The position numbers and the translations under genes are program-made. A DNA stretch of 64,000 nucleotides from Candidatus Ecksteinia adelgidicola (GTDB taxonomy: Bacteria > Pseudomonadota > Gammaproteobacteria > Enterobacterales > Enterobacteriaceae), in contig CP045239.1 of the NCBI GenBank assembly GCA_020541345.1, positions 434,001 to 498,000 of the forward strand, read 5' to 3'. The notes beneath the pieces are model-generated. The model had not been told where the DNA came from. It was given only the letters and a program-made list of their open reading frames with translations, and did not search any database. Positions 26,998-33,256 of this stretch are shown one piece after another (the stretch's first letter is position 1; every line of letters begins with the position of its first letter).

Positions 26998-28257
26998 TTA
27001 TGATCGTTTCATCATATCAAAAAATTCATCATTAGTTTTTGTCATTGCTAATTTATTAATTAAAAATTCCATTGCATTAATTTCACTCATTGGATGAATA
27101 ATTTTTCGTAATATCCACATTTTTTGTAATTCATCAGAAAATGTCAACAATTCTTCTTTACGTGTACCAGATCGATTATAATCTATTGCTGGAAATACAC
27201 GTTTTTCAGCAATTTTACGTGCTAAATGTAATTCCATGTTACCAGTACCTTTAAACTCTTCATAAATAACTTCATCCATTTTTGATCCAGTATCAATAAG
27301 CGCAGTAGCAATAATAGTTAAACTTCCACCTTCTTCAACGTTTCGTGCTGCACCAAAAAATCGCTTTGGTCGATGAAGAGCATTAGCATCTACTCCACCA
27401 GTTAAAATTTTTCCTGACGCTGGTACTACTGTATTATAAGCGCGAGCTAAACGAGTGATAGAATCAAGTAAGATAATAACATCTTTTTTATGTTCTACTA
27501 AACGCTTAGCTTTTTCAATAACCATTTCTGCCACTTGCACATGTCTAGATGCAGGTTCGTCAAAAGTAGAGGCAATTACTTCTCCTTTTACAAGTCGTTG
27601 CATTTCAGTAACTTCTTCGGGACGCTCATCAATTAATAACACCATAAGAACGCAATCTGAATGATTATAAGCAATACTTTGTGCAATATTCTGCAATAGC
27701 ATAGTTTTACCAGCTTTTGGTGGTGCAACAATTAAACCACGTTGTCCCCGTCCAATAGGTGAAGCCAAATCTAAAACGCGTGCTGTTAAATCTTCAGTGG
27801 ATCCATTACCTCGTTCCATACGAAGTCGAGAGTTAGCATGAAGTGGAGTTAAATTCTCAAAAAGTATTTTATTTCGTGCGTTTTCTGGTCTATCATAATT
27901 AACTTTGTTAACTTTTAATAAAGCAAAATAACGTTCTCCTTCTTTTGGTGGTCTAATTTTACCAGAAATAGTATCGCCGGTACGTAAATTAAAACGACGA
28001 ATTTGACTAGGAGATACATAAATATCATCAGGTCCAGCAAGGTAAGAGCTATCACTAGAACGAAGAAAACCAAATCCATCTTGTAAGATTTCTAATACAC
28101 CATCGCCGAAGATGTCTTCTCCACTTTTTGCATGTTGTTTTAAGATAGAGAAAATAATATCTTGTTTTCGAACACGTGCAAGATTTTCTAATCCTATATT
28201 TTCTCCAAGAGTAATTAAATCAGAAACTGGTGTATTTTTTAATGTGGTAAGATTCAT
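26998..28257 (-). CDS. rho: Transcription termination factor Rho
   Basis: 419 residues, identical in length to E. coli Rho. It is a hexameric RNA-dependent ATPase that releases untranslated transcripts. The N-terminal helix bundle and cold-shock-like RNA-binding domain ([17 protein letters not shown], residues 51-67) precede the ATPase core. The P-loop is [12 protein letters not shown] at 174-185 (Lys181 and Lys184 as in E. coli), followed by [10 protein letters not shown], the Q-loop/R-loop region and [12 protein letters not shown]. Rho is among the best-conserved proteins in the window. Since Rho-independent hairpins are almost absent here, Rho probably carries most of the termination load. 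Confidence 0.99.
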
Positions 28258-29109: not shown

Positions 29110-29442
29110 TTATGATGAAATATTTTCATTTATAAAATTTTGTAATTGTTTTTTAGAAAATGTACCAATTTGACTTGCTTTAACTTTTCCATTATCAAAT
29201 AACAATATTGTAGGAATACTGCGAATTCCATATTTAAGAGGTGTTTTTGGATTGTATTCAATGTTTAATTTAGTAATAGTTATTTTCTCAAAAAATTTTT
29301 TCGCAATATCATCTATAATTGGTGCAATAATTTTACATGGTCTACACCATTCTGCCCAAAAATCTACAAGAATTAATCCTTTAGCATTTATGACATTAAC
29401 ATCAAAGTTGTCATCAGTTAAGCAAATAATTTTATTACTCAT
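29110..29442 (-). CDS. trxA: Thioredoxin 1, with CRPC instead of CGPC active site
   Basis: 110 residues against 109 in E. coli. Thioredoxin reduces disulfides in ribonucleotide reductase and other proteins using electrons from TrxB. The fold is complete: buried Asp in [10 protein letters not shown], cis-proline loop RSIPTILLF and C-terminal helix. The redox centre reads WCRPC (Cys33 and Cys36 counting the initiator Met), where nearly all thioredoxins have WCGPC. Codon 34 is AGA at 29343-29341, one G-to-A step from GGA. Both cysteines remain, so redox function is expected, but the dipeptide between them sets the redox potential. AGGA upstream supports the ATG. It is next to rho, as in E. coli. 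Confidence 0.97.
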
Positions 29443-33019: not shown

Positions 33020-33256
33020 TTATTTTTTATAATCATGAACTTGATTATCTATTCGTTGATTTGCTCGAATAGAGTTTTCTTTAGCGTATTGTACATCAGA
33101 GCGAATTACAGTTACGTCAGAACTTATTTTATCAGCTTTAGTGTTTAAATTTTTAACATCAGAAGATAATTGTTCAAGTTTATTATTAGTTGAACATCCT
33201 GTTAATAGAACAGACGTTAAAATTACTGTTCTTAATACTAATTTAGTACAATTCAT
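33020..33256 (-). CDS. lpp: Major outer membrane (Braun) lipoprotein Lpp
   Basis: 78 residues, the E. coli length. A type II signal peptide (hydrophobic core VILTSVLLTG) ends in the lipobox LLTGC, so Cys21 is the lipidated N-terminus. The mature part is a heptad-repeat coiled coil (LEQLSSDVKNLNTKADKISS, IRSDVQ, RANQRIDN) ending in YKK. The C-terminal lysine is the one linked to peptidoglycan. Matching AAGGTGAT precedes the ATG. With its own promoter and terminator it is a monocistronic unit directly behind pykF, as in E. coli. It implies a real outer membrane anchored to a wall. The lipoprotein-processing genes (lgt, lspA, lnt) and the L,D-transpeptidase are not in this window. Confidence 0.98.
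   Translation of the reverse strand: MNCTKLVLRTVILTSVLLTGCSTNNKLEQLSSDVKNLNTKADKISSDVTVIRSDVQYAKENSIRANQRIDNQVHDYKK

Follow-up and report, generated by a model that had tools for sequence, protein, structure and literature searches.

A thioredoxin gene in the 64 kb stretch of DNA analysed here (the window) encodes an arginine between its two redox cysteines, at a residue that is usually glycine. We asked whether this gene specifies a protein on its way to losing function, a thioredoxin adapted to other partners or to another reductant, or an ordinary working thioredoxin in which the glycine is no longer required.

An arginine codon in an intact trxA gene

The AGA codon and the resulting WCRPC motif had been pointed out in a sequence-only reading of the window, and both were borne out. 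Positions 29341-29343 read TCT on the plus strand and AGA on the minus strand, and the minus strand from 29349 to 29332 reads TGG TGT AGA CCA TGT AAA, giving W-C-R-P-C-K within the local motif WAEWCRPCK of an uninterrupted frame (Table 1). We conclude that the Arg codon is real at the level of the assembly. By E. coli numbering its position presumably corresponds to Gly33, and we take the trxA-rho gene order to be that of E. coli as well.

Table 1. Features of the trxA region, in window coordinates
Feature	Position	Strand	Remark
trxA	29110..29442	-	intact ORF, 110 aa
Trp codon before the N-terminal Cys	29349-29347	-	TGG
N-terminal (attacking) active-site Cys	29344..29346	-	TGT
Arg codon between the redox cysteines	29341..29343	-	AGA; residue 34 counting Met
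Active-site Pro	29338..29340	-	CCA; kept
Second active-site Cys	29335..29337	-	TGT
rho	26998..28257	-	next long ORF downstream of trxA; named by sequence recognition
Lpp-like ORF	33020-33256	-	78 aa; resembles murein lipoprotein Lpp by eye; C-terminal end YKK

The window ORF passed the NCBIfam TrxA equivalog model NF006898 (152.8 bits, cut-off 138) and TIGR01068 (118.5, cut-off 96.8), and trxA gave the only match to the Trx family PF00085 in the window genome, a single contig of 980,458 bases. The protein has both redox cysteines, the tryptophan that precedes them and the proline between them (WCRPC), together with a loop proline in SIPT that we take to be cis; the Gly of CGPC is replaced by Arg. 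When aligned with solved thioredoxin chains, presumably those of E. coli TrxA, 108 residues matched with zero gaps, and we assign a thioredoxin fold to the window protein because of this gapless match. E. coli thioredoxin 1 (TrxA, NF006898) resembles the window protein over these 108 residues in W-C-x-P-C, the Asp and the cis-Pro, and E. coli likewise has TrxB. The two proteins differ at the first X, where Arg replaces Gly, and at E. coli position 74, where the window protein has Ser; the solved chain 2fch shares the RSIPT stretch.

The G+C content ranged from 0.13 to 0.27 across the window in 4 kb steps. The window bacterium has a reduced genome and, judged from genome size and base composition, is probably host-restricted. 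ARAGORN found no tRNA genes in the 64 kb window, and no ORF longer than 45 aa was found in the 3.6 kb separating the Lpp-like ORF from trxA.

The inter-cysteine residue in small and large genomes

We drew 392 genomes of the family and divided them by rounded size into 117 small (1.4 Mb or less) and 275 large (1.6 Mb or more) genomes. A TrxA match was obtained in 75 of 80 small genomes in one batch and in 33 of 37 in the other, and the residue after the N-terminal cysteine was read in 106 of the 117, with code 4 used for G126, G235 and G369. Nine small genomes had no match at E 1e-8 (G087, G101, G140, G221, G243, G295, G335, G346 and G359), and two further ones stand outside the 106: G195, whose frame is broken, and G308 (locus L360), which reads as WCNPC under code 4 and was excluded. 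The 106 small-genome TrxAs divided into G 40, N 36, S 11, A 8, T 4, R 3, E 2, H 1 and M 1. Residues other than Gly were present in 66 of them (62%), and in at least one member of 26 of the 48 genera, with Gly and non-Gly mixed in four genera (g1, g62, g71 and g83) and more than one kind of non-Gly residue in five (g18, g71, g76, g125 and g144). We conclude that Gly after the N-terminal cysteine is usual in TrxA, but not defining.

The window protein shares with these TrxAs (CNPC, CSPC, CAPC, CTPC and CRPC) the replacement of one and the same residue in a site otherwise fixed bar one Pro-to-His change, but it carries Arg where they usually carry Asn. Asn was the commonest replacement, found in five of five members of g68 and five of five of g97. 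Arg was confined to the window genome (labelled G000 in these counts), G076 and G352; the latter two belong to one other genus, g76, and have the AGA codon too, and the other three members of g76 that were read have Asn or Ser. The survey of this codon in sister symbionts had been proposed in the sequence-only reading, which also placed the Arg codon one transition from the normal one. In agreement with that, G001, the sole other genome of the genus compared, has GGA (Gly) at this codon (locus L023), and the window AGA differs from it by one G-to-A transition.

The same reading had called WCGPC near-universal. This held among the sampled relatives with large genomes and among the best named loci, but not in reduced genomes. 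The motif EWCGPCK was matched in 278 family genomes, 24 of them small, which gives 254 of the 275 large genomes as a genome-level motif match and not gene by gene; for the remaining 21, the best TrxA match by protein search had Gly in 20 and Ser in one. This last case, G171 (L279, 3.1 Mb; WCSPC with the Ser codon TCT), was the only non-Gly best TrxA match found among the 275 large genomes. In a scan of public genomes, the best 80 named loci of at least 591 relatives had Gly in 79 and Ala in one. Of the 57 genomes that were read outside the small list, 54 had Gly, the exceptions being G171, G053 (WCSPC, in a weakly matching protein that is perhaps not TrxA) and G058 (WCNPC in a 300 kb genome from another family). 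A class-wide motif scan matched 101 of 369 genomes, and 39 loci were then read; we give no class-wide count, because many of the loci read were other proteins or Trx paralogues. TrxA-like reads with other residues in this class-wide set included WCQPC (L302 and L303), WCNPC (L299) and WCPPC (L297). In the literature covered, as titles and partial abstracts and with most subscription journals outside it, we found no description of recurrent Gly loss in small-genome TrxA.

Conservation of individual columns was scored over 129 reference rows, 54 of them from genomes outside the small list and 75 from named loci; 29 columns were at least 95% conserved in these rows. Within the small genomes (n = 106), F28, W29, A30, W32, C33, C36, P77 and G93 changed in 0%, and P35 was altered in 1%, once, giving WCSHC in G033; the tryptophans, both cysteines and the cis-proline were invariant in all 106. 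I39 changed in 77%, always to L, F, M or V, V17 in 45%, mostly to I or L (38 of 46 changes), and G85 in 39%, its 41 changes including K 8, D 3 and Q 3. The idea that the inter-cysteine residue is the most changed conserved column was ruled out by I39 (77% as against 62%). What is distinctive about it is a non-conservative change beside unchanged active-site neighbours. Lys, Asp or Gln accounted for 14 of 41 changes at column 85 versus 0 of 66 at the inter-cysteine residue, counted over sequences that are not independent. Because none of these three appears here whereas column 85 takes a wider set, the position looks relaxed, but not free. Some new constraint or selection on the residue is likely, given the limited letters and the Asn kept across several sampled genera, and this counts against free drift.

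A tree was built for 40 small genomes from TrxA, with the inter-cysteine column removed, and TrxB. The best tree holds at least 7 changes between Gly and non-Gly and at least 16 changes over all states; 10 of 37 inner branches were well supported, and these counts apply to the best tree only.

Thioredoxin reductase and other partner genes

Out of the 117 small genomes, 80 were used to test partner loss as a cause of the Gly replacement, for trxB, the RNR large chain and glutamate-cysteine ligase (gshA). Of these 80, 75 gave a trxB match (TIGR01292), 68 of them above the curated cut-off, and the five genomes lacking one were the same five that lacked a trxA match. Every one of the 75 genomes with a trxA match had a trxB match, and TrxB loss was rejected as the cause on this ground. 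The trxB match of G369 is in two pieces with one stop.

The RNR and ligase comparison used the 74 of these 80 genomes in which the TrxA residue was read (43 non-Gly and 31 Gly). Among the 43 non-Gly genomes, 34 had the RNR large chain, as did 24 of the 31 Gly genomes (Fisher p 1.0, with the interrupted matches in G160 and G407 scored as present), and RNR loss was rejected as a cause; in G407 the large chain is split into three pieces. Loss of glutathione synthesis was rejected as well, gshA being present in 25 of 43 non-Gly and 16 of 31 Gly genomes (Fisher p 0.64, with the interrupted matches in G073 and G113 scored as absent); a separate comparison by independent pairs had only 4 pairs. The window genome has a full-length TrxB with CATC, a 773-aa open frame for the RNR large chain and a 523-aa open frame for glutamate-cysteine ligase, and the ligase is also present in G076 and G352.

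Single TrxB sites were compared with non-Gly TrxA over 40 genomes and 307 sites. Several gave low p values, the best being 3e-6 at V195, and we set these values aside, since genomes with non-Gly residues are clustered in the tree. Of 55 TrxB sites that do not vary among E. coli and the 39 remaining genomes, one is altered in the window genome, N156 to S. In G195, trxA is degraded (2 stops) and trxB is full length; because trxB is kept in this genome although trxA is broken, the two genes are not strictly tied.

A probably relaxed glycine and the alternative readings

Taken together, these results suggest that the window gene probably encodes an ordinary working TrxA, in which the requirement for Gly was relaxed as in other reduced genomes, Arg arrived by one transition and TrxB was retained. 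Because trxB is kept in each of the 75 small genomes that gave a trxA match, the protein is probably a functional cytosolic thioredoxin 1 reduced by TrxB. Weak selection and AT-biased mutation in the reduced-genome relatives would relax the need for Gly and would lead to repeated change, in which small residues (Asn, Ser, Ala and Thr) are the usual outcome and Arg an occasional one, with TrxB kept as the reductase. In the window genome, the change from GGA to AGA would have placed Arg at the first X of CXPC and left the chemistry intact, namely attack by the N-terminal Cys, the resolving Cys, the Pro, the cis-Pro and the buried Asp. We assume that the inter-cysteine residue sits on the docking face, and Arg may mainly alter the rate at which thioredoxin reductase and some clients engage the protein. 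Being charged and rare (3 of 106), Arg may also behave differently from Asn or Ser. The sequence-only reading had left the choice between mild degeneration and an adaptive shift; the data favour relaxed constraint with a limited set of allowed residues in a protein that probably works.

The Gly of WCGPC is regarded as near-universal, yet it is repeatedly lost in reduced genomes that keep its catalytic neighbours and, in all 75 of the 80 searched that gave a trxA match, the reductase. This pattern separates the role of the residue from the chemistry, and dozens of natural variants with their cognate reductases are available for asking what Gly33 does.

Convergent positive selection in host-restricted bacteria might instead have replaced the active-site Gly, re-tuning the balance between TrxB and glutathione for the single remaining thioredoxin, with Arg as an extreme, recurrent version; we regard this as doubtful. 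Similarly, we think it unlikely that the replacement is an adaptive switch of reductant, in which a non-Gly residue lets thioredoxin draw on glutathione, its own or the host's, beside TrxB or in its place. A study of rice thioredoxins ties this residue to the choice of reductant, thioredoxin reductase or glutathione, and to the speed of reduction: G41T (Gly to Thr) slows reduction by the reductase, and T55G (Thr to Gly) in OsTrx20, which has WCTPC, lowers reduction by glutathione (PMC5396813). According to the same study, plant Trx h of subgroup III (WCTPC or WCSPC), which like the window protein has a non-Gly residue after the N-terminal cysteine, is reduced by glutathione and glutaredoxin and not by thioredoxin reductase (PMC5396813), whereas the window genome retains TrxB. 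The recurrent change to N, S, T and A and the ligase genes of all three Arg genomes would fit such a switch. The presence of trxB in all 75 of the 80 small genomes with a trxA match, however, speaks against full replacement by glutathione, and gshA is unlinked to the non-Gly state, although glutathione might be imported from the host. A shift toward glutathione is possible, and gene content gives no support for it.

It is improbable that Arg shifts the redox potential, making the window protein more oxidising and changing its choice of partners, as the sequence-only reading had suggested. The title of a 1998 paper by Huber-Wunderlich and Glockshuber, cited in reference lists, says that the dipeptide modulates redox properties in this enzyme family. 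In addition, a report on type III plant nucleoredoxins describes a WCRPC motif, identical to that of the window, as highly conserved in their first Trx domain (PMC12052764). Because these proteins keep it, a conserved redox protein can evidently carry CRPC, although theirs is a multi-domain plant protein and ours a bacterial TrxA. Against a shift in potential, Pro and TrxB are both retained and the replacements in relatives are mostly uncharged. The rice study reports no redox potentials, the term occurring 0 times in it (PMC5396813).

Decay toward loss of thioredoxin function is quite improbable: low G+C, long spacers in the window and the degraded trxA of G195 are in keeping with it, but the trxA frame and TrxB of the window genome are intact, and the catalytic residues are conserved both there and in the small genomes read. 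A single-base sequencing or assembly error, for which one base would suffice, is very improbable given that G076 and G352, from a different genus, share the AGA codon, and given the frequency of non-Gly residues in small genomes and the assembly of the window genome as one contig.

Two further observations concern the smallest genomes. The WCSHC of G033 (L122, 353 kb) has both inter-cysteine residues replaced, giving a PDI-like X-His pair; TrxB was found in this genome, and searches for the RNR large chain and glutamate-cysteine ligase found neither. In genus g126 (about 300 kb; L252, L253, L255 and L360), the TrxA matches each contain two in-frame TGA codons, and the full-length TrxB matches of G126 and G235 contain one each. 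When TGA is read as Trp, thioredoxin-like frames result, as would be expected if TGA is a sense codon in these genomes.
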